Assembly: GCF_024399335.1 (NCBI RefSeq)
Contig: NZ_CP075339.1
Location: 2,170,001 to 2,234,000, forward strand
DNA from: Leucobacter aridicollis
Lineage (GTDB): Bacteria; Actinomycetota; Actinomycetes; Actinomycetales; Microbacteriaceae
Reading direction: 5' to 3'
Length of the DNA: 64,000 nt
Shown: piece after piece, positions 5,340-49,377 of the stretch
How positions within the stretch are numbered: the stretch's first letter is position 1
Layout: each line of letters starts with the position of its first letter
Program-made: the position numbers and the translations under genes
Notes under the pieces: generated by a model
What the model saw: only the letters and a program-made list of their open reading frames with translations
The model's database searches: none
What the model was told of the DNA's origin: nothing

Positions 5340-5774
5340 ATGGCACGCCAGCACTCCCCGAAACCCTTGCCAGACCCCTCTGACAGCGAACATGACCGCG
5401 CTACTACAATCGCGACCACCACCAGGCGCGATCTCGGTGCACGCGGCGAACTCATCGCAGCCGACTATCTTGTTTCCCGCGGCTTCACCCTCATCGCGCG
5501 CAACTGGCGATGCCGCTATGGCGAGCTTGATCTTGTGATGAGCGACGGCGACGTGTTCGTCGCCGTCGAGGTGAAGACGCGAAGCGGAACCGGCTACGGT
5601 GCACCGCTCGAGTCAATCACCGCGCGCAAGGCAGCGCGGCTTCGAAGGTTACTACTCGAATGGGGCCTCGCCACCGGAAACCGCGGCGCCCGCCTGCGCG
5701 TCGACGCTGTCGGGATCACACTCAGGCCTGGCGACGCTGCACCACAGATTGAGCACCTGCGGGCCGTCGCATGA
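5340..5774 (+). CDS. YraN / UPF0102 family endonuclease-fold protein
   Basis: About 144 residues with the UPF0102 core: GARGELIAADYL, ARNWRCRYGELDLV, and FVAVEVKTR. The ELD...EVK pattern is the PD-(D/E)xK-like active-site layout typical of the family. The biological role is still poorly defined. The ATG at 5340 follows a GGAGC; the open frame continues upstream without family similarity. The gene overlaps comM by ATGA, as the first gene of the yraN-comM-dprA-xerC operon. Confidence 0.88.
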   Translation: MARQHSPKPLPDPSDSEHDRATTIATTTRRDLGARGELIAADYLVSRGFTLIARNWRCRYGELDLVMSDGDVFVAVEVKTRSGTGYGAPLESITARKAARLRRLLLEWGLATGNRGARLRVDAVGITLRPGDAAPQIEHLRAVA

Positions 5775-7246
5775 GCCGCGGGGTGCGCCGGGCGGCCGCG
5801 ATCGCGCTCACCGGCCTCGAAGGGACGCCGGTGATGGTTGAAGCTGCGGTCTCGCACCAGCTTCCAGGGATGACGATCATTGGTCTCCCCGATACTGCGC
5901 TCGCCGAGTCTAAGCAGCGCGTCCGCACGGCGTCGGCGCAGGTGGGGTTACCAATCTCTGACCGATTCGTCACAGTCAACCTTGCGCCCGCTTCCCTCCC
6001 CAAACAGGGTTCCGGGTTCGACCTCGCGATCGCCCTCGCAGTGCTCTCGGCGTCCAAGCACGTTCCGACGGCGAAGCTCGCAGAGACCGCGCACATTGGT
6101 GAACTCGGACTCGACGGAAGCCTGCGCCGCCCGGTGGGTCTACTCAGTGCTGTGATCGCCGCGCGCGAGCTCGGTTTTTCACGCGTCATGGTGCCGTTCG
6201 AAGCAGGCGCAGAGGCGAGGCTTGTGCCGGGCATCGAGGTGGTGACGGCCGACACGCTTCTCGACGCGATTGCTTGGCACAAGGGCGAAGCACCCGCACC
6301 AGATATTGATCGGGATGCCTCACGGCCCGCGCGACCGCCGACTCTGCAGCCACTCGAAACCGCAGACATGTCAGACGTGTTGGGACAGGAGGAGGCGGTC
6401 GAGGCAATGGTTGTCGCCGCCGCCGGGAGGCATCACGTGTCGCTCACGGGTCCGCCCGGTTCAGGCAAGACACTCCTCGCGACGCGACTCGCGGGCATCC
6501 TCCCGGACCTTTCGCCGCCTGAGTCGCTCGTCGCCAGCAGCATCGCCTCGCTGAGCGGCGTCTCACTTGACACGCTCGTCACCCGGCCGCCATTCGAGAG
6601 CCCGCACCACACTGCCTCGTCCGCTGCAATCATCGGCACGGGAGACTCGCGCGGCATCCGCCCCGGTTCCATCTCGCGGGCGAGCTACGGGGTGCTGTTC
6701 ATGGACGAGGCCCCAGAGTTTGGGCGAGTCATTCTCGATGATCTCCGAGAACCGCTCGAGTCTGGAACCGTCACAATCTCACGAGCGCGCATCCACGCGA
6801 GCCTCCCCGCCAAACTCCAGCTCGTCCTCGCCGCGAATCCATGCCCCTGCGGCAACGCCGGTTCCCCCGAGACGGCGCTCTCATGTACGTGCACACCAAA
6901 CACGCGCATGCGCTATCTTGGCAGGTTATCTGGGCCCCTTATCGATCGCATCGATCTCCGCCTCAACGTGCGCCGGGTGAGCAGCCTGAGCTCACCGCTT
7001 TCCGGAAGGGCACCGACAAGCAACGACATCCGCGGGCGGGTCATCGCGGCTCGAGCGCGAGCACAACGACGGCTCCGTGGCACCCCCTGGACTCTCAACG
7101 GAGAGGTGCCAGGCGAATGGCTACGTGGTGAGTCGATGCGACTCCCCAGCGCTGCCACCACGACAATCGACCGAGCGCTCGCCCTCGGCGCGCTCACAGT
7201 GCGAGGCTACGACCGAATCCTTCGGGTTCACAGGACAACGAAATAG
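5771..7246 (+). pseudogene. comM: comM (YifB family AAA+), 5' part, cut by element insertion
   Basis: ComM is a Mg-chelatase-like AAA+ helicase that drives branch migration in natural transformation. These 491 residues hold the N-terminal ChlI-like domain, the Walker A GPPGSGKT (about residues 228-235), the FMDEAPEF Walker B and the CPCGN...CTC cysteine pair. The frame matches the family up to GYDRIL near the end. It then runs into element DNA and adds a short unrelated tail before TAG. The missing end is at 47,837-47,935. Loss of the C-terminal helical part probably inactivates it, but that is inference. Confidence 0.93.
7215..7230 (+). other. attL: left junction of the element in comM
   Basis: comM coding sense stops matching the family at about 7,219-7,222. 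Comparison with the right junction leaves only a short common core, CCTnCG (7,219-7,224). That fits a large serine integrase, which needs only about 2 bp of identity at the crossover. Joining left and right sequence restores GYDRIL-RLAWSISDLAG in frame. The exact crossover base pair is not determined. Confidence 0.7.
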
Positions 7247-7255: not shown

Positions 7256-8719
7256 ATGAGCGGAGCACTGAAGGCGGGAGCGAAGGCCGGCCTGTACTGG
7301 CGGCAGAGCGTCGACGAGAAGGACGGCATCGAGCGCCAGCGAAAGAAGACCCGCATGATGGCGAAGGCCCGCGAGTACGTCGTCGTGGCGACTTACGAGG
7401 ACAACGCGACCAGCGCGAGCAAGGGCCGCGGCACCGCGAAGTGGGCGCAGCTGCTCGACGACGCGGCCGCGAATCGGATCGACGTGGTGATCGCCGTGGA
7501 CGTGGATCGGCTGCTGCGCTCGATCACCGACCTCGCCGACCTGATGCGCACCGGCGTGCGCGTGCTCACCGTCGACGGCGAGATCGACCTGACCAGCGCC
7601 GACGGCGAGCTGCGGGCGACGATGCTGGCGGCCGTGGCCCGGTTCGAGGTGCGCCGGAAGTCCGAACGCCAGAAGCGCGCGAATGAGCAGCGCGCGGCGA
7701 AGGGGCTGCGCGTCGGGGGCCGCAGGCCCTTCGGCTACGAGAAGGACGGTGTGACGGTGCGCCAGGCCGAGGCCGACGCGATCGTGCTGGGGTACCGCAT
7801 GATCGCCAGGGGCGAGTCCCTCGGCGCCGTGGCACGGGCTTGGAACGACGCGGGCTTCACGACCGGCCAGAGCAAGCGCCTGAGCAAGACCGAGAAGGAG
7901 GCCGGGAAGACTCCCTCGCCCTCCGCTTGGACCCGCAGCGGCGTCCGCGACGTGATGCTGAACCGCCGCAACATCGGGCAGCTCGTCTACCTCGGCGAGG
8001 TGCAGAGCGCGCCGGCCCAGTGGGAGCCGATCCTGCAGGGCGACGACGCCGACCTCTTCGAGCAGGTGCAGTCGATACTGCTGGACCCGGGGCGGCGCAG
8101 GCCTGGTCGCAACCCTGTGGGGCTTCTCACCGGGGTCGCGCTGTGCGGCGTCTGCGGCGCGACGGCGCACGCCGGCGGCAGCGCGCGCAGGGGCGTGCGC
8201 GGGTACCGGTGTTCTGGGAGCACGGGGCACTTCTCTCGCATGGCCGAGCCCGTCGAGGACTTCGTGTCGCGCATCGTGGTGCGGCGCCTGGCCAGGAAGG
8301 ACGCCATCCGCCTGCTGAGCCCCTCGAAGTCCATCGACGCCCGCAAGCTGCGTGCCGAGGAGCGCCGCCTGCGGGAGCGGCTCGACGCGCTCGCCGCCGA
8401 GTTCGCGAAGCCCGATTCGGCCCTGACCGCGTCGCAGCTCGGCATCGCGTCGAAGGGCATCAAGGACCAGCTCGCCGCCATCCAGGCGGAGCTGTCGGAC
8501 GCGGGCCGGGTCGAGCTGCTCGGCGAGCTGGTCGGGCTCGGTGGGGACTCGGAGCAGTCGCGCGAGGCGGCCGTGCGCGCCGTGTGGGAGGCCCTCAGCG
8601 TCGAGCGCCAGCGCGAGGTCGTGCGGGAGCTGCTCACGGTGACCCTCCACCCGGTGGGCCGCGGCGTGCGCACGTTCAGGCCGGACACGGTCGGCATCGA
8701 GTGGGTCGAGGCGAAATAG
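7256..8719 (+). CDS. Large serine recombinase (integrase)
   Basis: A 487-residue site-specific integrase. It has an N-terminal resolvase domain with the nucleophile serine in YWRQSVDE (about residue 18), a catalytic-region arginine in VDVDRLLRS, and the RRKSERQKRANEQ linker helix. A recombinase domain follows (GRRPFGYEKDG, NRRNIGQLVY), then a zinc ribbon CGVCG...YRCSG (about residues 296-320) and a coiled-coil C-terminal part. It starts 9 bases after the truncated comM frame, the usual position of an LSR beside attL. It should catalyse integration into comM; excision would need a directionality factor. Confidence 0.95.
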   Translation: MSGALKAGAKAGLYWRQSVDEKDGIERQRKKTRMMAKAREYVVVATYEDNATSASKGRGTAKWAQLLDDAAANRIDVVIAVDVDRLLRSITDLADLMRTGVRVLTVDGEIDLTSADGELRATMLAAVARFEVRRKSERQKRANEQRAAKGLRVGGRRPFGYEKDGVTVRQAEADAIVLGYRMIARGESLGAVARAWNDAGFTTGQSKRLSKTEKEAGKTPSPSAWTRSGVRDVMLNRRNIGQLVYLGEVQSAPAQWEPILQGDDADLFEQVQSILLDPGRRRPGRNPVGLLTGVALCGVCGATAHAGGSARRGVRGYRCSGSTGHFSRMAEPVEDFVSRIVVRRLARKDAIRLLSPSKSIDARKLRAEERRLRERLDALAAEFAKPDSALTASQLGIASKGIKDQLAAIQAELSDAGRVELLGELVGLGGDSEQSREAAVRAVWEALSVERQREVVRELLTVTLHPVGRGVRTFRPDTVGIEWVEAK

Positions 8720-9050: not shown

Positions 9051-9386
9051 GTGGGGAACCCCGCAATCATCGCTGAGCGATACAGCCACTATCTCGACAT
9101 CCACCAGGCGATCGCCCTGGGCTACGGCACGGTGGCGACGATCCGTCGCCGCATCGCCTCAGGCGAGCTGCCGCGCGTCAAGATCATCCGTGACGGGAAG
9201 CGCAAGAACGTCTTCGACCCCGCCGACCTCGACCGCGTCCTCGGGGCGCGGCCGGAGCCCGTCGGCCCGGCCGCCGCGGAGGCGGCGCTCGACGCCGCCG
9301 TCGACGAGGTCGTCGCCAAGGCCCCCCGGCTGAGCGCCGCGCAGCTGGCGCGCCTCGGCTCGATCCTGGACGGGGGTGCTCGCTGA
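9051..9386 (+). CDS. Small helix-turn-helix DNA-binding protein, possible excisionase
   Basis: 111 residues, GTG start with GAAGGAG upstream. The first half reads like a MerR/AlpA-type HTH (YLDIHQAIALGYGTVATIRRRI, then RVKIIRDGKRKNVFDPADLDRVL). The rest is an alanine-rich helix. Such small HTH proteins beside an integrase are often excisionases or directionality factors, but the family alone does not prove it. The stop overlaps the next ATG (TGATG), so it is coupled to the helicase gene. Confidence 0.7.
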   Translation: MGNPAIIAERYSHYLDIHQAIALGYGTVATIRRRIASGELPRVKIIRDGKRKNVFDPADLDRVLGARPEPVGPAAAEAALDAAVDEVVAKAPRLSAAQLARLGSILDGGAR

Positions 9387-11263
9387 TGGCATCCGAGACG
9401 GATCAGGCCCCGCCGCCAAATGAAGAAGCCCCCGACCGGGATCGAGGGGCTACCGAAGCGTTTGGCGGCGCTGAGATCAATACTACAGGAACCGAGGCGT
9501 TCCTGCCAGTGGAAGCTTCCGAGAATGACTCGTCTACGAGCGCATCCGGCGGCGCCCCCGCGAAGCTCAAGCCGAAGAGGGTCCATGACCCGAGCTTCAA
9601 GGCGACCTCCAAGGAGACGATCGTCGCGGAGCGGACCGCGACCTACCTCACGATGATCGCGGCCAACCCGGTGCTGACTCCCACTGCGATCCGCGACGGG
9701 CTGCTGCGCTTCATCAACGACGGTCTCTCGGCCGAGGCGCGCCTCCGGCACAAGGCCGTGGCGAAGGCCCCGGCCATCGGCAACATCGACACGCTCGACG
9801 AGGCGACGGTCGCGACCGTGGTGCTCGCGCGGAACCGCATTGTGCGCCTCGACTTCACCCGGGGCAGCGACAGCAAGGCCGCCCAGGTCGTCGCCATGTA
9901 CCACGAGGCCGGCGACCACGCGGGGCTCTACGTGGAGGACGACAAGGCGATCGGGCTGCTTATCGGCGCGCTCGCGCCTTCGATGAGGCATCATGCGATC
10001 GAGTCCGCGTTCAAGCGGCTCGCGGACATGGCACCCGTGGTGCTGCCGACGCAGGAGAAGCACCTGGTGCCCGTGCGCAACGGGGTCTTCGACACCGCGC
10101 GCATGGAGCTGCGGCCCTTCTCCCCGGAGTGGGTGTTCCTCTCCAAGTGCGCGGTCGATTACGACCCGAATGCCGAGAGCCCTGTCATCACTCATCCTGT
10201 CGACGGTAGCGTCTGGGAGATCGAGCAGTGGATGACCGAGCTGAGCGACGACGAGGGTGTATCTGAGCTTCTCTGGGAGATCATCGGCGCCTCGCTCAGG
10301 CCGCACGAGAACTGGGACCGGGTGCCCTACCTCGTGGGGCCGAACGGCAACGGCGGTAAGGGCTCTGTCCTGGAGCTCATGCACAACATGGTCGGCCGCG
10401 AGGCGTACGTGTCGATCCCGCTCGCGCGGTTCGGCAAGCCCTTCGCCCTCACGGGCCTCCTGAGGTCGTCTCGCGTGCTGACCGACGAGAACGCCGTCGG
10501 CGCTCTCGCCCAGGACCTCGACGACTTCAAGGCTGTTGTCACCGGTGACCCCGTGATGGTCGACCGCAAGTACAAGGACCCCGTCATGCTGCATTGGAGC
10601 GGCTTCATGGTCCAGTGCATGAACACGATGGCGCCCAAGGTCAAGGACAAGTCGGCGTCGTTCATGAGGCGAGCACTCGTCGTCCCGATGACGAAGCGCT
10701 TCACCGGGATCGAGCGCAAGTACATCAAGAAGCAGTACCTCGCCCGCGAGGATGTGCTGCGGTATGCGCTCAAGCGCGCCCTCCACATGGACCACGTCGA
10801 GCTCTCGGAGCCCCTGGTGTGCCGTGTGGCGTGGGGGTCGTGGTTCAGCGCCAACAACTCCGTGCGCGGCTTCTGGGAGGAGTTCGAGCAGCAGTTCGCG
10901 TGGGACCTGCTTCCCTTGTCGTTCCTGTACGACCTCTACAAGGCGTGGTTCGCCGAGGTCGAGCCTGGCGGGCGGGCCGAGAGCTACAAGGACTTCCTGG
11001 AGGCGATCAGGTCGCATCTCGACGGCTCCGCCGATTGGCAGTGCCCGGCGGGTCCGGAGCGCATCAAGAAGCTGATGGCCGCGCCGGAGCCGCTGATCGC
11101 CGAGTACGACCTCGTCAAGTGGAAGAACTCGCTGGCCAATAGCTACGACCCGATCTCCGTCGGCTCGTTCGACAAGCCGAAGGCGAGCTACCGCTGCGTC
11201 TTGCGCACGGTTCCTGCTGTTGCTCAGGCTGCGTCCACGGATGACGAGGGCGCCGACGGCTGA
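9386..11263 (+). CDS. D5/P4-type phage or plasmid replicative helicase
   Basis: 625 residues. After ~80 residues of low-complexity sequence comes the D5-like region, with Walker A GPNGNGGKG (about 318-326), the TDENAV and VTGDPVMVDRKYKDP segments, and MNTMAPKVKDKSASFMRRALVVPM. These are typical of P4/D5 superfamily-3 helicases on phages and integrative elements. I see no clear primase zinc or TOPRIM motif at the N-terminus, so it may be helicase-only. It is the element's main replication candidate. Confidence 0.85.
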   Translation: MASETDQAPPPNEEAPDRDRGATEAFGGAEINTTGTEAFLPVEASENDSSTSASGGAPAKLKPKRVHDPSFKATSKETIVAERTATYLTMIAANPVLTPTAIRDGLLRFINDGLSAEARLRHKAVAKAPAIGNIDTLDEATVATVVLARNRIVRLDFTRGSDSKAAQVVAMYHEAGDHAGLYVEDDKAIGLLIGALAPSMRHHAIESAFKRLADMAPVVLPTQEKHLVPVRNGVFDTARMELRPFSPEWVFLSKCAVDYDPNAESPVITHPVDGSVWEIEQWMTELSDDEGVSELLWEIIGASLRPHENWDRVPYLVGPNGNGGKGSVLELMHNMVGREAYVSIPLARFGKPFALTGLLRSSRVLTDENAVGALAQDLDDFKAVVTGDPVMVDRKYKDPVMLHWSGFMVQCMNTMAPKVKDKSASFMRRALVVPMTKRFTGIERKYIKKQYLAREDVLRYALKRALHMDHVELSEPLVCRVAWGSWFSANNSVRGFWEEFEQQFAWDLLPLSFLYDLYKAWFAEVEPGGRAESYKDFLEAIRSHLDGSADWQCPAGPERIKKLMAAPEPLIAEYDLVKWKNSLANSYDPISVGSFDKPKASYRCVLRTVPAVAQAASTDDEGADG

Positions 11264-17392: not shown

Positions 17393-17399
17393 TCTGCTT

Positions 17400-17866: not shown

Positions 17867-17869
17867 GGC

Positions 17870-20500: not shown

Positions 20501-20520
20501 GCGACGACGGGCAAGTTGGC

Positions 20521-36143: not shown

Positions 36144-36352
36144 CGTCGGTTCACTTCTTTCTCTAGTCGGTACACGGCGTGCCCAAGCTGGTTGAACCCG
36201 GCGAAGCGAACTGCGCCGCCGAGAGCGAGCTCAGCTGCCCTCGTCGCGAGGTCAGGAGCCGTGTGGAGCGGGATCACGACCAAGTTCCCACGGTCGATCA
36301 CCAGGCTGCGCGCCCTGACGTGGACGGCGAGGCTGTCATCCTGGGACCTCAT
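36140..36352 (-). CDS. Unknown 70-residue protein
   Basis: Small, mostly beta-like (VRARSLVIDRGNLVVIPL) with four-base overlaps to dprA upstream and the next gene downstream. The coupling on both sides is the main evidence that it is real. Confidence 0.55.
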   Translation of the reverse strand: MRSQDDSLAVHVRARSLVIDRGNLVVIPLHTAPDLATRAAELALGGAVRFAGFNQLGHAVYRLEKEVNRR

Positions 36353-37248
36353 GCTGTGTCCTGCTTCTTTGCGCCTCGTCCAAGTAACCCCAGTACGTCA
36401 GCACCGTCTGCCACGAGCCGCGCTGTGCCCTGCTGCACGAGCATGTGGCAGCCCGCACTCGCCGCGCTTGTGACAGGCCCCGGCACTGCACCAACAGGCC
36501 GAGCCATGCCGTGCGCGAGCTGCGCGACCGAGAGCGCGCCGGAGCGCACTCCGGCTTCAGGGATGACCACTGCGCTCGCGAGCGCGGCGATGATCCTGCC
36601 GCGCATGATGAAGCGCCATCGGGTCGGCGCCGTGCCCGGGAGCGTCTCGCTGACTACACAGCCGTCGACGGCGATCCGCTCGATGAGCTCTCGGTGGCCT
36701 GCGGGATAGGCTCTGTCCACTCCGCTCGCGAGCACCGCGACGGTCTTGCCGCCGGCCGTCAGGGCAGCCCTGTGGGCTGCCCCATCAACACCGTAGGAGG
36801 CGCCAGCGAGCACAGCGAACTCTTGGCCGGCCAGCTCTGCTGCGATCTCGGTGGTTATGCGCTCGCCATAGGCTGTGCTCGCTCGTGCGCCGGTGATAGC
36901 AACGCTCTGCGCGCTCAGCAGAGACACGTCCCCGCGCGCCCACAGCATGAGGGGCTGAGACGGCGCGAGCGGGTCTGCACTCTCGATGTCCGCGAGCTGT
37001 GCTGGCCAGGCTGTGTCACCGGGAATGATCGGGGTGATGCCCGCAGCGAGGGCCTGATCCAGCACACGAGAGGCGCTGCTTGCCGTCATGTAGCGGTGCA
37101 GCTCGTTCTCGAATAACCAGGTCTCCGGGCGCTCAATGAGCTCAGCAGCCGAGGTCTCCGCGAGGAGCGCCGCGAGCCGGCGATCGCCAGGCTCCACTGC
37201 CCGGGAGATCGCGATGCGGGCCAGGAGGTCTTCGTGTCTGACATTCAT
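36349..37248 (-). CDS. dprA: Element-borne DprA-like protein
   Basis: 299 residues with the DprA Rossmann-like core: SVAITGARASTAYGE, VLAGASYGVDGAAHRAAL, VAVLASGVDRAYPAGH, GTAPTRWRFIMRGRIIAAL, and GVRSGALSVAQLAHG. DprA binds incoming single-stranded DNA and loads RecA. This copy lacks the C-terminal winged helix that the host DprA at 47,932 has. Set in an operon with SSB, it probably protects or processes the element's own ssDNA. It overlaps its neighbours by four bases each. Confidence 0.9.
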   Translation of the reverse strand: MNVRHEDLLARIAISRAVEPGDRRLAALLAETSAAELIERPETWLFENELHRYMTASSASRVLDQALAAGITPIIPGDTAWPAQLADIESADPLAPSQPLMLWARGDVSLLSAQSVAITGARASTAYGERITTEIAAELAGQEFAVLAGASYGVDGAAHRAALTAGGKTVAVLASGVDRAYPAGHRELIERIAVDGCVVSETLPGTAPTRWRFIMRGRIIAALASAVVIPEAGVRSGALSVAQLAHGMARPVGAVPGPVTSAASAGCHMLVQQGTARLVADGADVLGLLGRGAKKQDTA

Positions 37249-38224: not shown

Positions 38225-38463
38225 GGTGTTGTCTTCTCTCTCTGCTCTCTTCTCTGGGCGTCCCGGACGCGGCCGATCGCCAGGAGCGCTGCGCCGATCG
38301 CGGCGAACAGACCAGCGCGCCCCACGAGGCTCGTGCCGTCGGCGATCACGAGGCCGTTGAAGGCGAGGCCGATGATGCTGCTCACGACGACGGTGACGCC
38401 GAGGATCGTGAGCGTGGACGTGGCGGGCTTTGAAGCAGTCATTTCGGGTCCCTTCGTGCTCAT
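38221..38463 (-). CDS. Small two-helix membrane protein
   Basis: 80 residues with two hydrophobic helices (about 17-36 and 45-64) and a charged tail (RVRDAQRREQREK). Overlaps ssb and the next gene by four bases. Unknown role; a membrane protein in an ssDNA operon is unusual. Confidence 0.6.
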   Translation of the reverse strand: MSTKGPEMTASKPATSTLTILGVTVVVSSIIGLAFNGLVIADGTSLVGRAGLFAAIGAALLAIGRVRDAQRREQREKTTP

Positions 38464-38864
38464 GCCTGAGCCTTGTCTGTGCTTTCCTCTGCGTTCTCCG
38501 TGCCGCGCGTGAACTCGCTGGTGCCCCAGAACAGGTCGTGTCCCATGCGCTCGGCGTTGATGGTGTGCTTCGCGATGGAGCCGCCCCGGTTCCAGAGCAG
38601 CACCTCCTTAGCGGTGCCGGTCACGAGCAGACGGTCGCCCGGCTTGATGCTCTGCGATGCGTTCACGGCGAGCTGCCGGAACGCGTTCACTGTGTAGTAC
38701 ACGGTGCGCTTCGCGCCGCGACGTGGCCCCTCCTGGACCGCCATCTCGAATGAGACGTAGGGCTGGCCCAGCTTCGTGGTGCTGTACTTGACCGTGTCCC
38801 CGACGACGCCGGACACTGTGATCTGCTTCTGTGCTTGCTTTTGCTCAGACATGGCTGTGCTCAT
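38460..38864 (-). CDS. ssb: Single-stranded DNA-binding protein, short form
   Basis: About 134 residues with an OB-fold SSB core (QITVSGVVGDTVKYSTTKLGQPYVSFEMAVQEG, FRQLAVNASQSIKPGDRLLVTGTAKEV). The tail is acidic but ends in Gln-Ala rather than the DDDIPF-type tip of host SSB, so it may not recruit host SSB partners. The ATG at 38864 is preferred; another at 38852 is possible. It heads a seven-gene overlapping operon running to 35,829. Confidence 0.82.
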   Translation of the reverse strand: MSTAMSEQKQAQKQITVSGVVGDTVKYSTTKLGQPYVSFEMAVQEGPRRGAKRTVYYTVNAFRQLAVNASQSIKPGDRLLVTGTAKEVLLWNRGGSIAKHTINAERMGHDLFWGTSEFTRGTENAEESTDKAQA

Positions 38865-38991
38865 TTCTGTTGTTCCGTGATGCCAACAGAGCCACAGCCC
38901 GCAGGGCTGCACCTCTCAAAGTTCTTCCCGGGACGGGCTATGCCCGGCCCCAACACTCGCTTCCTCGCTCGCGCAGGCGAGCGGAATAGAC

Positions 38992-39085: not shown

Positions 39086-39298
39086 ATGAGCGACGACGGT
39101 GTTGAAGTCCCCGACGACCTGGAGATCCGTGTCGGTGACGGCACGGGTAACGAGCAGTACCGCATGTGCCAGGAGTGCGGCCGCGACTGCGTGCCGGAGC
39201 CCTTCGACGCCGGCACGGGCGACGGCATTAGGGTGGCGTTCTCGTGCCCTGAGCACGGCGTGCACGCTGTGGTTGACCCGTTCGAGCACTTGCGTTAA
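39086..39298 (+). CDS. 70-residue zinc-ribbon-like protein
   Basis: CQECGRDC and CPEHGVH supply two pairs of metal ligands. ATG at 39086. A diverged copy with a stop codon at the third of these cysteines lies at 47,404. The 62-residue protein at 17,678 shares CPEHG. Function unknown. Confidence 0.65.
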   Translation: MSDDGVEVPDDLEIRVGDGTGNEQYRMCQECGRDCVPEPFDAGTGDGIRVAFSCPEHGVHAVVDPFEHLR

Positions 39299-40519: not shown

Positions 40520-41953
40520 TCAGCCCCTGTACGTCGACTCCGGCCCGTACGCGCTCCACCCGCCCATGAACGGCTGCAGTGCTTTCTCCGTGGCTTTCGG
40601 CGTCTCCGGCAGGCGCAGCCGCTGCCGGAGCGGGTCGACGCGGTCGGCGTATTCGCGGGCCCACTGGGCCCATTCGAGGGCCTCGCGGCGCGCGTCGTCG
40701 TCAGGCTCGGCGAGGGCGCGCTGCTCGACAGCGTCGGCGTACTCGCGGATGTCGGCTGCCCTCTTCCACCTCTTCGCCTGCTCGGCGAGCTCCTTGGCCC
40801 GGTGGCTGTCCGTGAGCTCCTGCACGGCCTGCTCGCGGGCGATCTCCCACCTACGCTGGCGCTCGATGCGGGCGCGCTCCGCAGCCTCCCTGCTGCGCTC
40901 TTCGGCCTCGTGCCGGAGCTCCAGCTCCTGCAGCACCTGCGCGAGGGAGTCCTCAAGGGGGCGGTCGGCGGTGTCCTTCCACTCCGAGCCCCAGAAGCTG
41001 ACGCCGTGGGTCTCGACGCGGATGCCCAGCCTCTCTGTCGGCACGACGTCCCACTTCTGGACCCAGTGACCCTGCTCGGCGCGCTTGGCCTCGGTCTTCG
41101 AGAGGACGTGCTCGACGTTCTTGCTGATCTGGAAGAGGCTCAGCCGGTATTCATCGGGCCCGAGCACAAGCATGAGGTGCCCCTGATTCCGGTCGTGCTT
41201 CTGCACGTAACCCCAGCGATCCTTCGGCGGAGGCTTGATGAACTTCGCCTTGTGGCCTCGCAGCTCCGCCTCGGCGACGAGCGCCTGCGCGAGGCGAAGG
41301 GCACGGTTCTTCTCACTGGCGCTGATCTCGAAGTCCTCCCGGTCGCGGAGATTCTTGACCACTTCGGAGGCCCCGCGAAGGGACGCCGGCACGGGCACCG
41401 GGTCGAGCACGCGCATGCGCCACTCGGGCAGCGGGTGCAGCCGCACGCAGACGGTCCTCTTGCGCCAGTCACTCTCAACCGTGACCTGCATGCCCTCCGG
41501 GACCTTCTTGAAGCGCTCGGCGGTCTTCGCGAGCTGCTCGTACCGGTGATGCTCGTCGTAGTCGATCTCGATCCGGTTGTCCGGGGCCGCGAGCAGCGCT
41601 GTCATCATTGCTGCGGTGGGGCCCTGCTTGCGGACTGCCGGCTTGCGGGGAGCCGGAGCAGGGGCCGAGTCGCGGCTGGGTCGTTCCGCCGGTGACGGGG
41701 CCTTCTCGTCTGCGGCGGGTCGCTCGCTGTCTTCTTGGGGCGGGTAGTCGCCATGATCGGCGTAGTAGGCGCCGTCTTCCGTGATGGACGCCTGCCATTG
41801 CTTGCCGTGCCCCTTCACCTCGACCAGGCCGCGGTTGTGCAGCGCGCGGGCGACGATCCGGTGCTCGTAGCCCTCGTACACCCCGTCCGGCGCGCCGTCC
41901 CGCACCCAGGTCAGGACTTCGAGCTGCGCGGTGTTGAGCGGGAGGCGAGGCAT
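40520..41953 (-). CDS. Winged-helix plus coiled-coil protein facing the iteron region
   Basis: 477 residues from the ATG at 41953, which has AGGAGGAG upstream; the longer frame is discarded. Residues 1-65 look like a winged helix (LNTAQLEVLTWVRDG, VARALHNRGLVEVKGHGKQWQASITEDG). The centre is an unrecognised alpha/beta part with PPPKDRWGYVQKHDRNQGHLMLVLG. Residues about 320-430 are a long charged coiled coil. Its start faces the repeat array at 42.4 kb, so it is a candidate initiator, partition or regulatory protein, by position only. Confidence 0.6.
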   Translation of the reverse strand: MPRLPLNTAQLEVLTWVRDGAPDGVYEGYEHRIVARALHNRGLVEVKGHGKQWQASITEDGAYYADHGDYPPQEDSERPAADEKAPSPAERPSRDSAPAPAPRKPAVRKQGPTAAMMTALLAAPDNRIEIDYDEHHRYEQLAKTAERFKKVPEGMQVTVESDWRKRTVCVRLHPLPEWRMRVLDPVPVPASLRGASEVVKNLRDREDFEISASEKNRALRLAQALVAEAELRGHKAKFIKPPPKDRWGYVQKHDRNQGHLMLVLGPDEYRLSLFQISKNVEHVLSKTEAKRAEQGHWVQKWDVVPTERLGIRVETHGVSFWGSEWKDTADRPLEDSLAQVLQELELRHEAEERSREAAERARIERQRRWEIAREQAVQELTDSHRAKELAEQAKRWKRAADIREYADAVEQRALAEPDDDARREALEWAQWAREYADRVDPLRQRLRLPETPKATEKALQPFMGGWSAYGPESTYRG

Positions 41954-42015: not shown

Positions 42016-42056
42016 GAAGGCCGCTCCGTGGAGTCCGAGTTCTTGGAGCGGCCTTC
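42016..42056. terminator. Hairpin upstream of the winged-helix gene
   Basis: 12-bp stem GAAGGCCGCTCC / GGAGCGGCCTTC with a 17-base loop. It could terminate plus-directed reading or structure the leader. Confidence 0.4.
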
Positions 42057-42193
42057 TGAAAAGGTAGTCGCAGTATGAGTCCCAACGACTGCCCCTCACG
42101 TTAGACGAGTCGATCTACATCGCGAAGCGACGGCCGGCACGGCGTGTCGCGCATCGTGCCGAGCGCCCGGAGGGGCCTCGGGTCGCAGCCATT

Positions 42194-42313
42194 CCGCTCC
42201 CGCTGCGTGGCCGCTGCGTCTCAGGGGGCCTCGGCTCCGCTCCCGCTGCGCCCCGGAGAGGCCGTCGAGGGGGTCTGCAACGCCTCGTGGCCCGCGGCTG
42301 CGCTCCCGCTGCG
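42194..42313. repeat. Three CGCTCCCGCTGCG repeats
   Basis: Copies at 42,194-42,207, 42,237-42,250 and 42,301-42,313; a variant with CCCACTGCG occurs near 47,660. They lie just before the GTAACGC array. Confidence 0.55.
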
Positions 42314-42400
42314 CCTCGGCCGGGCTGGGGAGGGAGAGCCCCTCGGGCATGAGGTTGCTCGGGCAGACGGGCTGCATTGGGCGTGCTGCCGGGCGGCTGC

Positions 42401-42887
42401 GTAACGCTGCTTCCGGCCGTGTAACGCTGGCCCCGCGGCTCGTGAGGTGTGCGTTTCTGCTCGTTTACCAGGGGTTTCTTCGTGCAGGGAGTCTGCTCGC
42501 CGGGGCGGGGAAGCCGGTTTTGTAACGCCGGGCCTCCTGGCGTTACAGCAGAGTTACAATAGAACCCGTCTCTGACCAGGGTTTTCTCTTGAGTGTAACG
42601 GTGTAACGCTCTTTCTGAGGAATTGGTATAGAGAAGAAGTTAAATATCAAGACCAACCACCATGCCATGTGTGTACTTACGTGCTCTGTATATAATAGGT
42701 TTCGCCTTTTCAGCGTTACAGCGTTACGCACCCCGTTCTGCCGCATGATTCCGCGGATCTCGCCGTTTCGCGGCCGTGACGCTACTATCCGGCCGCACCG
42801 CCGCTCGCGTGCTCCGACGCCCTGTTTTGCCGCATGATTCCGCGGTTTCTCGACGCGTCGGGAAGCGTAACGCTCGTTCCGTTACGC
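42401..42887. repeat. Iteron-like GTAACGC array with AT-rich core (candidate origin)
   Basis: Ten GTAACG copies, most of them GTAACGC, in 490 bp. Forward copies are at 42,401, 42,421, 42,522, 42,595 (GTAACGg), 42,603 and 42,867. Reverse copies are at 42,540, 42,713, 42,721 and about 42,880. An AT-rich stretch (about 42,612-42,712, with TATAATAGG) lies between the left and right groups. Two copies of TGCCGCATGATTCCGCGG (42,739 and 42,828) lie to the right. This is the layout of an iteron origin or a multi-site operator. No coding sense is visible. Confidence 0.65.
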
Positions 42888-43196
42888 TCGGCGGCTTCCG
42901 CCCGCTCCGCCGAGCGCAGCCGCGGACGCCTTCCCGCTCACGCCGAGCACCTCCTGGAGGAGGGGAGCCCTCCCTGCCCGGCAGTAGCCGAGCATCTGCG
43001 AGCGGCAGGAACCACGCGCTGAACTGGGGTTTCCCCGCCGTTGCTCACATACGCAAAAATGTCGTATTGTGCCTGGTGTGCTGGTGGTCATGCCGGGGCT
43101 CGCTGTCCTCTGGGCGCGGGCAGGCCGGATCGCCTGTCCTGTCAGAGGAACCCCCGCACCGGCTGTGCCGGTGCTATGCGCGCTTCAGCACCCGAG
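42888..43196. other. Gap right of the iteron array
   Basis: About 300 GC-rich bases. A plus-strand frame from 43,059 (starting MSYCAWCAGG) has CxxC-like character but no ribosome site and runs into the opposite-strand hydrolase gene, so I do not call it. Confidence 0.35.
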
Positions 43197-44873
43197 CTAC
43201 TCCTCGTGCCTTGGTATCGTCGAGTAGTTTTCGAGCGCCGCCTGCACCCGCTCCAGTGCGAGATCGTCGATGCCGTCCGATGGAGCCACCTGCTGCCATG
43301 CGGTGAGCACGACGTCTCCGTAGTTGTGGCCATAGGAGGCGGGTACGGCTTCACCGACCAGCATGTCCACCGTCACCTGTAGTCCGGTGACGATCGGGAT
43401 CCAGCGCATCGCCGTGCTGATGTCCGGGCTGCGCTGCCCTGCGTCGAGCCACTCCGGTGAACTCCACAGCAGTTCTGATGAGAGCCAGGTGACGGGATCG
43501 GTCGCGTGCTGCAGATACAAGACCCGTGGATTCTCCCACGGACCGGAAAGCTGCTCCTCGTCACCGGCGCGTGAGATCCAGCGCACTTCGCGCCCGTCAT
43601 CGAGTACCGGCTGCCATTCTGGGCTGCCGTCATCACGTGCCGCTTGCAGGGTACGCCACAAGGAGGATCCGTTCGGGCTCCCCACGAATAGTGCGCCGTC
43701 GGTGCGCTCCCGAAGGTCGGTGATGTCCGCGAACACAGCTTGGCTGCCGTGCGCGCCGAGGCTGAGGCCATATGAGATGAGCTGTGGCCTCTTGTCAGCG
43801 GGGAGAGTGTCCACCTTGGCCTCGATCGCATCGAAGAGGGCTCGCGCAGCCTCGACGGGGGCATCCGGGTCGAAGATGAACGACACCCAGCTTGGGGTGT
43901 ATGCGTACTGCATCGCGGCGATGGCAGTGTCACCGCCGTGGAGGTACTCGACGGCGTCCACGGTCTGTGGTTCCAGCCAACCGGAACCTGTGGTCGTCGC
44001 AACAACCAATACCTCGCGGTCGAACGCGCCGGTGCGTTCAAGTTCGTCGACGACGAGCGCCGTGCGCTCTGCGAGCGTGGGTGCGGATTTGAGTCCGGCA
44101 TAAACGCGGATCGGTTCGATCGCCTCAACACCGGTGACCTCAGTGATCTCAGCCGCGCTCGGGCCGCCACCGACGAACTCCGCCCCATGCCTGCCGAGCG
44201 ATTCCCAGGCGATGGCTGATTCGGGTCCGGCGGAGCGGAACTCTGAGTCGGGCTCTTCCACACTCTCTTCTGGCAGATGGTTGCGATCAAAGTAGATGCG
44301 ATCCACGGTCGCGAGTGCAGCGAACACTAGTCCGGCCGCGACACCACCGACGATGATCGCCGTCGCGGCGGTCGCGAGCACCGTGTGCATGCGTCGACGG
44401 AGGCGCGTGCGCATCAAGCGAACTGTTTTCCCGAGCAGAAGAAGCAGAACCGCCACAGGGATGAATGCGATCGCGAAACCTGCAATGTCTGCTCTGTCGA
44501 GGGGCGGCATGCTCACGAGGCTTCGCACTTCGTTCTGCCACACCGTCGACAGCACTGAAAGCGCGACCACCGCCAGGATCCAGGCTCCCGCATATACGAA
44601 CCACCAGATCCTCCGGAAGTGCGGAACCGCACCGTCCTTCCATAGAAGCTTCCGGATGATCGCCCAGATCACGGCACCTAACAGGTACCCGATACCGAAG
44701 GCAAGGGCCGCGAGAACGCCCTGCAGGATCGCGGGACGCGGCAGTAGCGATGGGGTGACGGAGAGGATCGCGAACACGAACCCGACCACAGACCCGATCG
44801 AGTCAAGCGTCCACCATGCCGTCCGGCGCGTGGTGCGGCGAGCATGATCGTCTCCGGAGTTCTGATGGTACAT
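43197..44873 (-). CDS. Membrane alpha/beta-hydrolase (Abhydrolase_9 family)
   Basis: 558 residues from the ATG at 44873. Four to five hydrophobic helices occupy about 20-190. An extracytoplasmic-type hydrolase domain follows, with the nucleophile elbow YGLSLGAHGSQ, plus TTTGSGWLEP and the LYLQHATDPVTW segment common to PF10081. These actinobacterial proteins are predicted lipases/esterases acting at the membrane. It ends a three-gene minus-strand group with a membrane protein and a lipoprotein. More host-like than mobile-element-like, so probably cargo. Confidence 0.82.
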   Translation of the reverse strand: MYHQNSGDDHARRTTRRTAWWTLDSIGSVVGFVFAILSVTPSLLPRPAILQGVLAALAFGIGYLLGAVIWAIIRKLLWKDGAVPHFRRIWWFVYAGAWILAVVALSVLSTVWQNEVRSLVSMPPLDRADIAGFAIAFIPVAVLLLLLGKTVRLMRTRLRRRMHTVLATAATAIIVGGVAAGLVFAALATVDRIYFDRNHLPEESVEEPDSEFRSAGPESAIAWESLGRHGAEFVGGGPSAAEITEVTGVEAIEPIRVYAGLKSAPTLAERTALVVDELERTGAFDREVLVVATTTGSGWLEPQTVDAVEYLHGGDTAIAAMQYAYTPSWVSFIFDPDAPVEAARALFDAIEAKVDTLPADKRPQLISYGLSLGAHGSQAVFADITDLRERTDGALFVGSPNGSSLWRTLQAARDDGSPEWQPVLDDGREVRWISRAGDEEQLSGPWENPRVLYLQHATDPVTWLSSELLWSSPEWLDAGQRSPDISTAMRWIPIVTGLQVTVDMLVGEAVPASYGHNYGDVVLTAWQQVAPSDGIDDLALERVQAALENYSTIPRHEE

Positions 44874-44914
44874 GGGCAGGTGCGTCTCTTCTTTCAGTAT
44901 CGGGTGCGGTCCGG

Positions 44915-45433
44915 TCAGTGGATGAGGGCTTTGAGAGCGATGATAAGACCACCGAACCCGGCAGTGATCAGCGCTCCGCCAAGCCTTGCCCAGGTGCTGT
45001 GGATGCGGGCCGCAGTGATGGCCCATCCGAGGAAGCCGAGCAGGAGCACGTCGATCAGGAGCGCCAACCAGACAGCATCGGCGGGCCGCAACAAGCCGGT
45101 CACGCCGAGGAGCAGCACGAGCACCGGGATGAGACCGATCAACAGCATGCCGAGCGACTCAGCGATACCAGCGCGCAGTGCCGCGGCGAAGGCGATCCGG
45201 TTGTGGCTCATCTCCGCCAATGTCGCCGCGTAGGCGTGCGCGGCGAAGAACACGAGCAGAGTACCCACGACTGCGAGCAGCGCCTCCCAGGAGCTGCCGG
45301 TGAGGTTGCGGGTCACGACGATGACGCCGGACACCACGATCAGCCCGTAGATCCCGCCAGCGGAGGAGACGAGTTCGAGGAAGCGCGAGCCTGCGCGAGG
45401 CCCAGAAGACTCCGTAAGGTCGGGTGTCGTCAC
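44915..45433 (-). CDS. Integral membrane protein
   Basis: 172 residues with five likely membrane helices. The GTG at 45433 overlaps the lipoprotein stop by four bases, so initiation is probably by coupling. A longer frame lacks support. The segment AHAYAATLAEMSHNRI between helices 2 and 3 is conserved-looking, but I cannot name the family. Confidence 0.65.
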   Translation of the reverse strand: MTTPDLTESSGPRAGSRFLELVSSAGGIYGLIVVSGVIVVTRNLTGSSWEALLAVVGTLLVFFAAHAYAATLAEMSHNRIAFAAALRAGIAESLGMLLIGLIPVLVLLLGVTGLLRPADAVWLALLIDVLLLGFLGWAITAARIHSTWARLGGALITAGFGGLIIALKALIH

Positions 45434-45804
45434 TGCCGGGCGGTCTTTGCGAGCGACCCGATCTCCGCGCCGGACGCATCGCTGACGAGCAGCGCGTCGC
45501 CGTCGATGCGTGCAGTGTCGAGATCCATCAGCCAGGTGTCGACGTCGGGGCACGCCATCAGGGTCATCGCGACCTCCCCGAAGATGATCACCTCGCCGTC
45601 CTGCTCCCATCCGCCGCTGAGCCGGTTGCACCCGTCCGTGCCGGAGAGCTTGCCGCCCTCTTCCAGCACGAGGTGGGGCTGCCCGTCGGCTTCCTCGCCC
45701 CAAGTTCCGGTCGCGTCCGCGGATGACGCCGAGCACGAGGTCAGTGCGAAGAGGGCGATGCCCGCAACGACCAAGGCCTTGATTCGGTGGTTCGTGAAGA
45801 TCAT
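45430..45804 (-). CDS. META-domain-like lipoprotein
   Basis: 124 residues with a lipobox ALTSC (Cys about residue 24). The rest resembles META/HslJ proteins: GTWGEEADGQPHLVLEEGGKLSGTDGCNRLSGGW, then GEVAMTLMACPD. Such proteins are linked to envelope or heat stress resistance; the exact role is unclear. AGGAG lies upstream of the ATG. It is divergent from the HdeD operon across a 167-bp gap. Confidence 0.75.
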   Translation of the reverse strand: MIFTNHRIKALVVAGIALFALTSCSASSADATGTWGEEADGQPHLVLEEGGKLSGTDGCNRLSGGWEQDGEVIIFGEVAMTLMACPDVDTWLMDLDTARIDGDALLVSDASGAEIGSLAKTARQ

Positions 45805-45971
45805 GTCGGCACTCCTGCGTGTTCGGCGTTCGAGATCTGCTGCCCATCTTATCGGCGCCCGTTTCTTGTCATATAAGGCGACCGAGCTCATGATCCACGA
45901 CACGCCGCCGATATGATCGCTCATAGACGAACCTGTCGCATGCGAATACGAGCGAGAACACGAGGAACCCG

Positions 45972-46520
45972 ATGACCACAACAACCACCACAGCACCTGC
46001 GAAGGGGGCACGCCTCGCGCTCCTGATCGGCGGCCTTGCCGCCGTCGGCTTCGGCATCGCCGTGCTCGCCTGGCCCACCAAGGCCGCTGTCGCGCTGACC
46101 GGCGTCATCGCGCTCTATGCGATCATTGCGGGCATCGTCTACGCAGCGCTCGGCATCTTCTCCAAGGGCCTCGGCGCAGGTGGCAGGATCGGGCATGTGC
46201 TCCTCGGCGTGCTCTACGTCGTCGCAGGCGTGTACGCGTTCTCGTCGCTGCAGCAGTCCGCTGCGTTCCTGGCACTGTTCCTGACGATCATGGTCGGCGT
46301 CATGTGGGTCATCGAGGGTTTCACCGCGCTGTTCACGCTCGGCCAGTCCGGTTCCAAGGTCCTCACGATCGTGTTCGCGATCCTCTCCGTCATTGCCGGG
46401 TTCACGCTCTTGAGCAGCCCGCTCTGGGGGGCCATGTTCCTGTGGTGGTTCCTCGCCATCGCCCTCATCGTGCTCGGCGGTCTGAACGTGATCCGCGCGA
46501 TCGCGGGGAAGAAGGCCTGA
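45972..46520 (+). CDS. HdeD-family (DUF308) membrane protein
   Basis: 182 residues with six predicted membrane helices and the repeated LAWPTKAAVALTGVIALYAIIAG pattern of HdeD. In enterics HdeD is linked to acid resistance; the actinobacterial role is not established. It begins a three-gene plus-strand operon, with the next ATG 3 bases after its stop. Confidence 0.85.
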   Translation: MTTTTTTAPAKGARLALLIGGLAAVGFGIAVLAWPTKAAVALTGVIALYAIIAGIVYAALGIFSKGLGAGGRIGHVLLGVLYVVAGVYAFSSLQQSAAFLALFLTIMVGVMWVIEGFTALFTLGQSGSKVLTIVFAILSVIAGFTLLSSPLWGAMFLWWFLAIALIVLGGLNVIRAIAGKKA

Positions 46521-46522
46521 CC

Positions 46523-46960
46523 ATGGCGACTGAGCAGTTCGCAGGCCCCGTTGACTACCTCGTGTTCGCCTTCGACGAGCACGCCGACCTCGGCCCCGGC
46601 CTCTCCGCGGTGCTGGACCGCGTCGAGCAGGGCATCGTCGAGATCCTCGACATAGAGCTTATCGGCCGCGACGAGACGGGTGCGCCCGTCAAGCGCGTCC
46701 TCGCCGACCTCGACGGCGTGACCGGCATCGACCTCGCAGCGTTCGACGGAGCGGAGAGCGCCATCCTCGATGCCGATGACCTCACCGGCATCGCCGCAGA
46801 GCTCGGCGAGGGCCAGATGGCGCTCGCCGTCGTCTACGAGGACCGCTCGTTCGCGGCCGCTGCAGGCGCTTGGTCGACAGCAGGCGGCGTGGAGCTGTTC
46901 TCCGGCGGAGTCGACATCGCAGAGCTTGATCAGATGCTCAACGAAGGGAACCAGTCATGA
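46523..46960 (+). CDS. DUF1269/DUF6325-like soluble protein
   Basis: 145 residues. The pattern GPVDYLVFAFDE..., ILDIELIGRDETG, and ALAVVYEDRSFAAAAGAW is that of the family found next to SHOCT and HdeD genes. No catalytic residues are visible. The ATG at 46523 lies 3 bases after the HdeD stop, and the stop overlaps the SHOCT gene. Confidence 0.75.
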   Translation: MATEQFAGPVDYLVFAFDEHADLGPGLSAVLDRVEQGIVEILDIELIGRDETGAPVKRVLADLDGVTGIDLAAFDGAESAILDADDLTGIAAELGEGQMALAVVYEDRSFAAAAGAWSTAGGVELFSGGVDIAELDQMLNEGNQS

Positions 46961-47226
46961 GCCTCCTCCGCACCGCCGTACGGGCATCAGTCGCGACCCG
47001 CGTGATCGGGAGCACCCACCGCCGCCAGCAGCAGCGCTGGGCCACGCAGGACGCGGCTGCTGCTCCCGCAGCTCCCGTCGCACCGCCTGTGCCCGAGGCC
47101 GCACCCGCCGCGGGCGGAGCCTCGGTCCTCGATCAGCTCGCGCAGCTCGGGCAGCTCCGAGACGCGGGCGTGCTCACGGAAGCCGAGTTCGAGGCGCAGA
47201 AGCAGCGCATCCTCTCCGGTTCCTAG
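46957..47226 (+). CDS. SHOCT-domain protein
   Basis: 89 residues. A basic N-terminus and an Ala/Pro linker lead to a C-terminal SHOCT helix pair (LDQLAQLGQLRDAGVLTEAEFEAQKQRIL). SHOCT is a short oligomerisation or localisation module. Coupled by ATGA to the DUF6325-like gene, and followed by a terminator. Confidence 0.88.
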   Translation: MSLLRTAVRASVATRVIGSTHRRQQQRWATQDAAAAPAAPVAPPVPEAAPAAGGASVLDQLAQLGQLRDAGVLTEAEFEAQKQRILSGS

Positions 47227-47242
47227 GCGGGTCGTCGCGTCC

Positions 47243-47278
47243 GACAGGGTGCTCGATCTATCGATCGGGCACCCTGTC
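47243..47278 (+). terminator. Terminator of the HdeD-SHOCT operon
   Basis: 10-bp stem GACAGGGTGC / GCACCCTGTC with an inner TCGAT/ATCGA extension, 17 bases past the SHOCT stop. Confidence 0.7.
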
Positions 47279-47403
47279 CGCGTTCGTGAGCAACTCATGG
47301 CGGGACTGCAAAGCACCCGCCCGCAAGCCGACGGGCCGGTGGGAGCAGTGGTCGCGGAGGGGTGCTTGACAGCGTTCAGTGCGGTGCGCGTAGGGTCGTC
47401 AGG

Positions 47404-47829: not shown

Positions 47830-47845
47830 TGTAGCCCTGCGCCTG
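47830..47845 (+). other. attR: right junction of the element in comM
   Basis: comM sense resumes at about 47,837 (CTG CGC CTG GCA TGG, reading LRLAW). The core shared with the left junction is CCTnCG (47,836-47,841). Excision between the two would rebuild comM in frame. Confidence 0.7.
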
Positions 47846-47935
47846 GCATGGTCGATCTCCGACCTCGCCGGCGAGTCGCGGCCGGGACGTAGCGAGGTTG
47901 CGCAGGCGCTCGCGCTGCGAGGCGGTTCGACATGA
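47837..47935 (+). pseudogene. comM: comM 3' remnant
   Basis: 32 codons plus stop encode LRLAWSISDLAGESRP followed by SEVAQALALRGG, the conserved C-terminal helix of ComM/YifB. The stop overlaps the dprA ATG (ATGA), the normal comM-dprA junction, which proves the remnant belongs to the gene cut at 7.2 kb. Confidence 0.92.
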
Positions 47936-49377
47936 GTGACTCTGACGACTGGTTGGCTGCGAGAGAACCGCGACCGCGCAGGGGCAGCACCAGTTCGCAC
48001 CAGCAAGGCATCATCCGTCCCGACGCAGAGACAGCTCCGCTGCTCGCTGCGGTCTGCACCCTCGACTCAGGCTCGGAAACCGACGCAGAGGATCTTCTCG
48101 CGCGCGTTGTGTGGTCCCGGGTCACGGAGCCAGGCGATGCCACCGCCGGAGCGCTGATCGCTGCGCTCGGTCCCCTCGCCGCTCTCGATCTGCTCACAGA
48201 TCGCGACCCCGCCCGTGCATGTGCCCGAATGCTGCGAGATGCACGCCAGAGCGACATGTTAGGCGGAGGCGGCGCCCACTGGAGTGACACCGATGCCGTC
48301 TCTTCACGACGCCTTCGAGCCGGCGTGAAAAGATGGCTGCCACGGCTCAGCCGGGCCGACTCCCTCAGAGACTTGTCCACTGCCGTCGCACTGCATATGA
48401 AGGTTGTCACACCCGAATCGCGCGCATGGCCATCACAACTCAACGACCTCGGCGTACACACTCCGCACGCGCTCTGGGTACGTGGCGATCCCGCTGTGCT
48501 CGCTGCACCGTCGTTGGCAGTGGTGGGTGCCCGAGCGAGCACAACCTACGGCAGCCAGGCAACAGTAGATCTCGCCGGTGAGGCCTGCGAGGCCGGCTAC
48601 TCAATCGTCTCCGGCGCAGCGTACGGGATCGACGCGGTCGCCCATCGCACCGCCCTCGCTGCGGGAACCCCCACGGTGGCAGTGCTCGCGGGCGGTGCCG
48701 ACCGCCCCTATCCCGCAGCCCATGACAGGTTATTGAGCCGCATCGCAGACAACGGCGCCATCTGTGCAGAGCTACCCCCGGGAGCTGCCCCCACGCGGTG
48801 GCGGTTCTTACAGCGCAACCGAATCATTGCTGCGCTCTCACAAGGCGTCCTTGTTACAGAGGCCGGGGTGCGGTCGGGCACTCTCAACACTGCGGGCCAC
48901 GCTGCCGAGCTCGGGCGCGCGCTCGGCGCAGTTCCAGGCCCAATCACTTCCCCGGCCTCTGCTGGGTGCCACAGACTGGTTCGCGAATACGGCGCGCTGC
49001 TCGTCACCACCCGAGCCGAGGTGCGAGAGCTACTCGGAACACCGGAGGCTGCGGCGAGCGCCGACCGCGATACGGCCTCCGTTTCGCCGTCGCCCGCTGA
49101 AACTGTCGGGGATCAGGCAGACCACGACGGTCCGCCCTCGGGTGCCGGAGGAAGTTGGCGGGAGCCCCCGCTTCACAGGCGAGTCCTCGACGCGCTGCCC
49201 CTCTCAGGGGGTCGGTCGGCTGCAGACGCTGCACGGGCAGCCGGGCTGAGCTTTGAAGAAGCCCGTGATGCGCTTGCCGAGCTCGAACTGCTTGGCAGGG
49301 TCTCAACCGTTCCCAGCTCCGACGGCAGTCAACGACTCTGGCGGCTCGTGAGAAGCGGCCGCCAGGCAACGCGGTGA
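47932..49377 (+). CDS. dprA: Chromosomal DNA-processing protein DprA
   Basis: 481 residues. The N-terminal ~190 form the SAM-like extension, then the Rossmann core with AVVGARASTTYGSQ, VSGAAYGIDAVAHRTAL, GGADRPYPAAHD and RNRIIAAL. After an Ala/Ser linker comes a C-terminal winged helix (HRRVLDALPLSGGRSAADAARAAGLSFEEARDAL...). DprA loads RecA on transforming ssDNA. The gene is intact, but the element now lies between it and the old yraN-comM promoter, so transcription probably starts inside the element's right end. Confidence 0.95.
   Translation: MSDSDDWLAAREPRPRRGSTSSHQQGIIRPDAETAPLLAAVCTLDSGSETDAEDLLARVVWSRVTEPGDATAGALIAALGPLAALDLLTDRDPARACARMLRDARQSDMLGGGGAHWSDTDAVSSRRLRAGVKRWLPRLSRADSLRDLSTAVALHMKVVTPESRAWPSQLNDLGVHTPHALWVRGDPAVLAAPSLAVVGARASTTYGSQATVDLAGEACEAGYSIVSGAAYGIDAVAHRTALAAGTPTVAVLAGGADRPYPAAHDRLLSRIADNGAICAELPPGAAPTRWRFLQRNRIIAALSQGVLVTEAGVRSGTLNTAGHAAELGRALGAVPGPITSPASAGCHRLVREYGALLVTTRAEVRELLGTPEAAASADRDTASVSPSPAETVGDQADHDGPPSGAGGSWREPPLHRRVLDALPLSGGRSAADAARAAGLSFEEARDALAELELLGRVSTVPSSDGSQRLWRLVRSGRQATR

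Follow-up and report, generated by a model that had tools for sequence, protein, structure and literature searches.

A probable iteron-type replication origin at the end of a Leucobacter comM island, paired with a SaPI-Rep-like D5 helicase encoded at the opposite end

A 64,000-nucleotide stretch of the Leucobacter aridicollis chromosome (contig NZ_CP075339.1, positions 2,170,001 to 2,234,000; hereafter, the window) carries an array of short repeats in both orientations around an AT-rich core. Based on sequence comparisons, this array very probably functions as the origin of replication of a ~ 35.8-kb integrative island, namely as the iteron origin for the SaPI-Rep-like D5 initiator that the island encodes; the gene at 40520–41953 is judged to be cargo. 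An orphan-looking repeat array would in this way be assigned a likely function and a likely protein partner. The features are collected in Table 1; G000 is the host genome of the window, assembled as a single contig, and all other G numbers are genomes of the same genus.

Table 1. Features of the window bearing on the candidate origin
Feature	Coordinates	Strand	Basis or remark
comM 5' part, interrupted by the island close to its end	5771..7246	+	ORF open to 7246
Integrase-end junction with comM (approximate)	7218..7245	.
Large serine recombinase, island integrase	7256..8719	+	Pfam, PHROGs scans
D5/P4-family helicase, proposed initiator, related to SaPI5 primase-helicase	9386..11263	+	Pfam, PDB sequence, fold
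DprA-like protein, conserved right module	36349..37248	-
SSB-family protein, conserved right module	38460..38912	-
Earlier candidate initiator, here judged cargo	40520..41953	-
Conserved flank of array, also beside arrays of G012, G050 and G019	42350..42377	+
Candidate origin, iteron array of GTAACGCT and one-mismatch variants	42401..42887	.	counts, scans
AT-rich core of candidate origin, lowest-GC 100 bp of the window	42602..42720	.	GC scan
18-bp box TGCCGCATGATTCCGCGG, first copy	42739..42756	+	exact
18-bp box TGCCGCATGATTCCGCGG, second copy	42828..42845	+	exact
Array-end junction of island (approximate)	43046..43075	.
comM displaced 3' end	47838..47936	+	read directly as LRLAWSISDLAGESRPGRSEV; precedes chromosomal dprA

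The original prediction had described a GTAACG array in both orientations, an AT-rich 100-bp core and an 18-bp direct repeat that together resembled a plasmid origin, and each of these elements was recovered. Motif counts gave ten copies of GTAACG in the array, eight of them GTAACGC, in mixed orientation; the whole window contains 12 GTAACGC, compared with a mean of 4.39 and a largest value of 10 in 100 dinucleotide shuffles. When GTAACGCT was counted with up to one mismatch, the array held 13 sites, two of which overlap, with seven to the left and six to the right of the core. A GC content of 38% per 100 bp is reached in the window only within the core, and the 2-kb bins of the window range from 58 to 69% GC. 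Both copies of the 18-bp box are exact and the host genome contains no further exact copy of TGCCGCATGATTCCGCGG. The proposed check for genome-wide enrichment, run with GTAACGCT, was also positive: of 52 copies in the host genome (3,604,182 bp), six lie within 474 bp at the array, and the second-densest place listed has three in ~ 1.3 kb. When clustered 7- and 8-mers were scored with correction for composition, and again for two-orientation 8-mers, the array ranked first in the window. In its appearance, the region fits the proposed iteron-type origin of a mobile element. When the arrays of G000 and G056 were compared, 4 of 98 iteron columns and 40 of 389 other columns had changed; this difference in conservation is not significant (p = 0.07), which counts against the origin reading. 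A spaced-repeat pattern search returned no matches, and the DNA of 42050–43100 matched none of 72,556 plasmid records at an E-value of 1e-5. ARAGORN and Rfam (gathering threshold) returned no match in the window, and a tRNA-type site or known RNA was accordingly discarded as the identity of the array.

The island occupies about 7228–43065 and is inserted in comM, with the array ~ 178 bp from one of its ends. Genomes G000, G044 and G056 have in common the left module (7228–20513) and the array end up to 43072, at the same place in comM; the homology of the island to both relatives starts at 7228 and stops at 43072, and the two ends are conserved in all three genomes around a variable interior. 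The islands of G044 and G056 lie in reverse orientation relative to G000: their array end abuts the 5' part of comM and their integrase end abuts the 3' side, whereas in G000 it is the integrase end that abuts the 5' part. In G005, comM is uninterrupted across the insertion site. From left to right, the island encodes the serine recombinase, the D5-type helicase, a Clp-like AAA protein, unknown genes, a type III methylase accompanied by a weaker type III restriction match, an Mrr-type enzyme, the 1801-aa MTES_1575 protein, the DprA-like protein, a DUF4192 protein, the SSB, an Abi_C protein and the 40520 gene. The 13095–40446 region includes cargo of the defense type, i.e., a DolB-like Clp ATPase, the type III methylase and the Mrr-type enzyme, together with the 1801-aa protein, which is PDC-S37/Hhe-like, and a weak AbiJ match. 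At the two island junctions, the central dinucleotides seem discordant in G000 and G056, which counts against the origin reading; read by eye, the one at the integrase end seems to be GT in G000 and AC in G044 and G056.

Beyond the array end, the stretch from ~ 43073 to ~ 47837 encodes an alpha/beta-hydrolase and other proteins, and ends in a second att-like sequence. No integrase was found among the scanned ORFs of 43073–47845, which is probably a second, tandem insertion. Its 47446–47645 segment is related to a gene region of the right module near 39100–39290. In five more genomes of the genus, comM is split into two pieces that lie far apart or on two contigs, with the cut near residue 314 (G019, G023, G060, G063) or 350 (G049), both different from the site in the window. 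Serine-integrase islands with a D5 gene were also seen in comEC, in G050 and, by eye, in G019 (L073 10743–12511; G050:C48:17284–18000; L133 3700–4120). Competence genes (comM, comEC) seem to be a favored target of D5 serine-integrase islands.

The original prediction found no known initiator gene next to the array. This does not hold for the island as a whole, since a D5/P4-family helicase is encoded at its other end, and relatives of this protein accompany such arrays elsewhere. The 9386–11263 protein has Pfam D5_N/DUF5906 matches, and the SaPI5 primase-helicase 7ola was its only PDB sequence match at E-values up to 1 (2.2e-46); a profile built from 12 relatives matched 7ola at 7.7e-83. The same structure was the best fold match of its model (E 2.2e-26; mean pLDDT 71). 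The match to 7ola covers the protein only from residue 170 (of 625) onward, so that no primase part is apparent. The nucleotide-binding residues G321, N322, G324, K325 and G326, together with D367, E368 and N369, are invariant in the 12 aligned sequences. The array is separated from the right end of the island by 178 bp, and the D5 gene from the left end by 2158 bp; array and D5 gene are therefore ~ 2.3 kb apart on the predicted circle, compared with more than 30 kb as inserted. The apparent remoteness of the proposed initiator gene would thus result only from viewing the integrated rather than the circular form. The position of the integrase and the att site between array and D5 gene, unlike in most relatives, counts against the origin reading.

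To examine how regularly such arrays accompany D5 genes, we compared D5 loci within and outside the genus. Fourteen of 54 Leucobacter genomes (own included) have a D5 match, which is strong in 12; the weak matches of G005 and G062 were left out of the array comparison. A two-orientation array was present in 11 of the 12 strong loci, own included. Six of these arrays lie 0.5–0.9 kb upstream of D5, those of G018 and G001 lie downstream, and those of G000, G044 and G056 are located at the opposite end of the inserted island. Locus G004 has long one-orientation direct repeats in place of such an array, which counts against the origin reading. The repeat is GTAACGCT in G000, G044 and G056, ATAGACG in G012 and G016, CTGCTACA in G046, TCGGGACA in G060 and GGGTGACA in G050 and G019; G018 and G001 contain CGGACAG-type clusters.

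A scan of one genome per species yielded 101 relatives, of which the best 80 were kept, including five Leucobacter loci (L144, L145, L160, L161, L164) that had also come up in the genus search. Only the best 8-mer cluster was scored per locus, with the end of the D5 match set to 9600 for most loci. Among these best 80 of 101, a two-orientation array exceeded the threshold in 55, and it lay within 2.5 kb of D5 in 48, upstream in 41 of them. None of 240 shuffles (first-order resamples, three per locus) passed the threshold, and neither did the controls apart from 2 of 63, which carry the G044 and G056 copies of the window array; the controls were loci retrieved for unrelated purposes, most of them short, and comprised 447,619 bases compared with 1,278,698 for the D5 loci. 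On the opposing side, 25 of the 80 loci lacked a two-orientation array at threshold, and for 7 of the 55 that had one the best cluster was more than 2.5 kb away. Loci L144 and L145 (G044 and G056) were scored as misses because array and D5 gene occupy opposite ends of their inserted islands, and the best cluster of L161 differs from its previously found array, so that this locus was scored as far and left out of the 57-locus set described below. A typical array has mostly 10–14 sites, which in most loci flank a low-GC stretch on both sides, with exceptions including L182, L189 and L206. Ten further records were scanned (six viral contigs, pGKT2, phage bIL310 and two other plasmids), and three of them passed, namely the viral contig L227 and two plasmids, L233 from Streptomyces and the 5.7-kb L232 from S. 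thermophilus. No array at threshold was found in five viral contigs (L224 just short), pGKT2 (L230) and phage bIL310 (L231), which likewise counts against the reading.

Our analysis of repeat sequence against D5 identity revealed similar iterons in 72% of locus pairs at 60–80% D5 identity and in 7% at 40–50%. The correlation was reached by none of 2000 permutations with 57 loci (no dereplication; two loci, L127/L164 and L129/L160, are counted twice in this set) or with 36 loci (80% dereplication), by 16 of 2000 with 26 loci (60%) and by 121 of 2000 with 17 loci (50%). The iteron thus appears to change with the lineage of the initiator in the sets of 57, 36 and 26 loci, the link being unclear at 17 loci. 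Among pairs below 60% identity, the iteron correlated about equally with the last 80 residues of D5 (rho 0.34) and with its AAA part (rho 0.32). As a raw count, uncorrected for chance, the trinucleotide ACA or its complement is present in the iterons of 18 of 26 dereplicated loci. The 57-entry list of iterons and D5 proteins allows predictions as to which helicase reads which repeat.

The original prediction had proposed the 40520–41953 protein as a new type of initiator. This gene is the nearest to the array in the inserted form (its start is ~ 450 bp away), its protein is explained by no Pfam, NCBIfam-independent or PADLOC family, and gene and array occur together in G000 and G044. Nevertheless, the two also occur apart. 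Some match to the gene was found in 11 of 54 genus genomes (own included), close only in G044 (99%) and G050 (82%); G056 keeps the array at 89% and has no match to the gene in its genome, and G050 has the homolog but lacks a neighboring array. In G050, the right module and the 40520 homolog on contig C15 end at a comEC-5'-like ORF beside a ComEA-like ORF, the former being a reading by eye to which Pfam gave no match, and on contig C48 a Pfam-confirmed 3' part of comEC adjoins a serine integrase, the GGGTGACA array and the D5 gene, so that we infer C15 and C48 to be two ends of one island. The D5 protein of G050 (36% identity) has this GGGTGACA array of its own, and this natural swap separates the 40520 gene from the array while linking arrays with D5. 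In addition, none of 15 loci with 40520 relatives (L020–L028 and six plasmids, most of which also served as controls) passed the array threshold, one of the plasmid relatives shares its plasmid with a separate annotated replication initiation protein, and the island itself already carries a SaPI-Rep-like protein. The proposal was rejected on these grounds and is barely credible as an account of initiation; we judge the 40520 gene, together with most of the island interior, to be cargo. The 40520 protein had no match in 50,697 phage records.

Two further explanations assign the repeats to other proteins. If the array were an operator or promoter region, a regulator bound to the repeats would control either the D5 gene or the right-module genes that are read leftward. 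The array does lie upstream of leftward genes, and in 41 of the 80 loci the array is upstream of D5, where repeats could also serve autoregulation; however, 8–14 and more sites spread over hundreds of bases around a low-GC core are much for an operator, and the neighbors of the array vary among loci while D5 stays, which makes an exclusively regulatory function unlikely. The array may have a double role as both origin and operator/promoter. A partition centromere or transfer site, read by a ParB-like or TraB-like protein, can likewise consist of a short repeat array. Pfam detected no ParA/ParB or FtsK/TraB families among 39 distinct window ORFs, and arrays track D5 genes; this explanation is very improbable.

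For the preferred reading, i.e., an origin read by the D5 protein, the following sequence of events can be proposed. The serine integrase would excise the island from comM, as suggested by its anatomy and by the two relatives in the same gene. The island ends would meet on the circle and bring the array to ~ 2.3 kb from the D5/SaPI-Rep-type helicase gene. By analogy with the SaPI/P4 kind, the D5 protein would bind the GTAACGCT repeats that flank the AT-rich core on either side, melt this core, load as a hexamer and start replication of the circle, possibly with the island SSB as a helper. The case illustrates how an origin may seem to lack a partner as long as only the integrated arrangement of an island is considered. 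The findings suggest that defense islands of Leucobacter are capable of excision from the chromosome and of replication, a point relevant to the spread of defense genes.

Known systems that come close include SaPI and phage P4 replicons. SaPI origins have short iterons on either side of an AT-rich core, and the P4 origin combines repeats in both orientations with an AT-rich part; the window array resembles both in this general plan. The island has a helicase related to the SaPI5 primase-helicase in sequence and fold, iterons flanking an AT-rich core, and the proposed initiator and candidate origin linked on one element, all of which are features of SaPI-Rep/P4-type replicons, and the iteron differs with the initiator lineage here too. 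Relatives of the D5 protein are annotated as 'phage/plasmid primase, P4 family', which likens them to the phage P4 alpha protein. The integrase of SaPIs and other PICIs is typically of the tyrosine type, whereas the window island uses a serine recombinase; it further differs in the lack of a visible N-terminal primase part, in having array and helicase on opposite sides of att, and in cargo that includes defense genes. Packaging or helper-hijack families were not detected by Pfam on 39 window ORFs (partly outside the island) or PHROGs on 10, many ORFs matching no family. The S. thermophilus plasmid pCNRZ1202B, a 5.7-kb circle, has a P4-family protein with a two-orientation array of nine AGTACACT, and its replication annotation names a primase-type gene along with a P4-family gene; however, it is a free plasmid from Firmicutes and its protein has ~ 25% identity to the window D5 over 58%. 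AICEs such as pSAM2 likewise integrate site-specifically in actinobacterial chromosomes and carry AICE Rep families and a TraB-type ATPase; in contrast, Pfam found no FtsK/TraB-type ATPase or AICE Rep family in the ORFs scanned, among which unnamed ORFs remain. Initiator families of classical iteron plasmids (Rep_3, TrfA or RepA type) were also absent from the ORFs scanned with Pfam.

Two points of the island appear less ordinary, namely the att site between origin and initiator, and a conserved box that persists as iterons change. Despite the differences among the iterons, the core of the 18-bp box, CCGCATGATTCCGCGG, variants counted, is present at the D5-linked origins of G050 (three copies), G019 (three) and G004 (two), as well as at single sites in other Leucobacter genomes; outside the genus, one copy with one mismatch was found (L147). 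It looks like a second, separate element of Leucobacter D5-linked origins. As a tentative extension, the D5/SaPI-Rep-type initiators of Actinobacteria and Firmicutes may constitute one large system with a readable iteron code, with an iteron of ~ 7–9 bp for each lineage, a CCGCATGATTCCGCGG box in Leucobacter that is constant while the iteron varies and whose reader is therefore probably not the part of D5 that recognizes the iteron, and a compact replicon that in the comM-island family, with integrase and att between origin and initiator, would be formed only by excision.

The box sites of L137–L143 share no protein with the island, except for relatives of the Clp-AAA protein and of another protein at L143 and a small one at L138. 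At L143 7970–8130 (G000:C1:2290070), in the same genome as the window, a small origin-like site combines a box variant, two GTCAGCACA repeats and the conserved flank; a relative of the island Clp-AAA protein lies ~ 3 kb away, and a second D5 match is absent from the genome. In G012, a dispersed repeat of ~ 100 bp or more surrounds the box variant CCGCGTGTTTCCGCGG and occurs in five copies (L052, L055, L057, L058 and L059).
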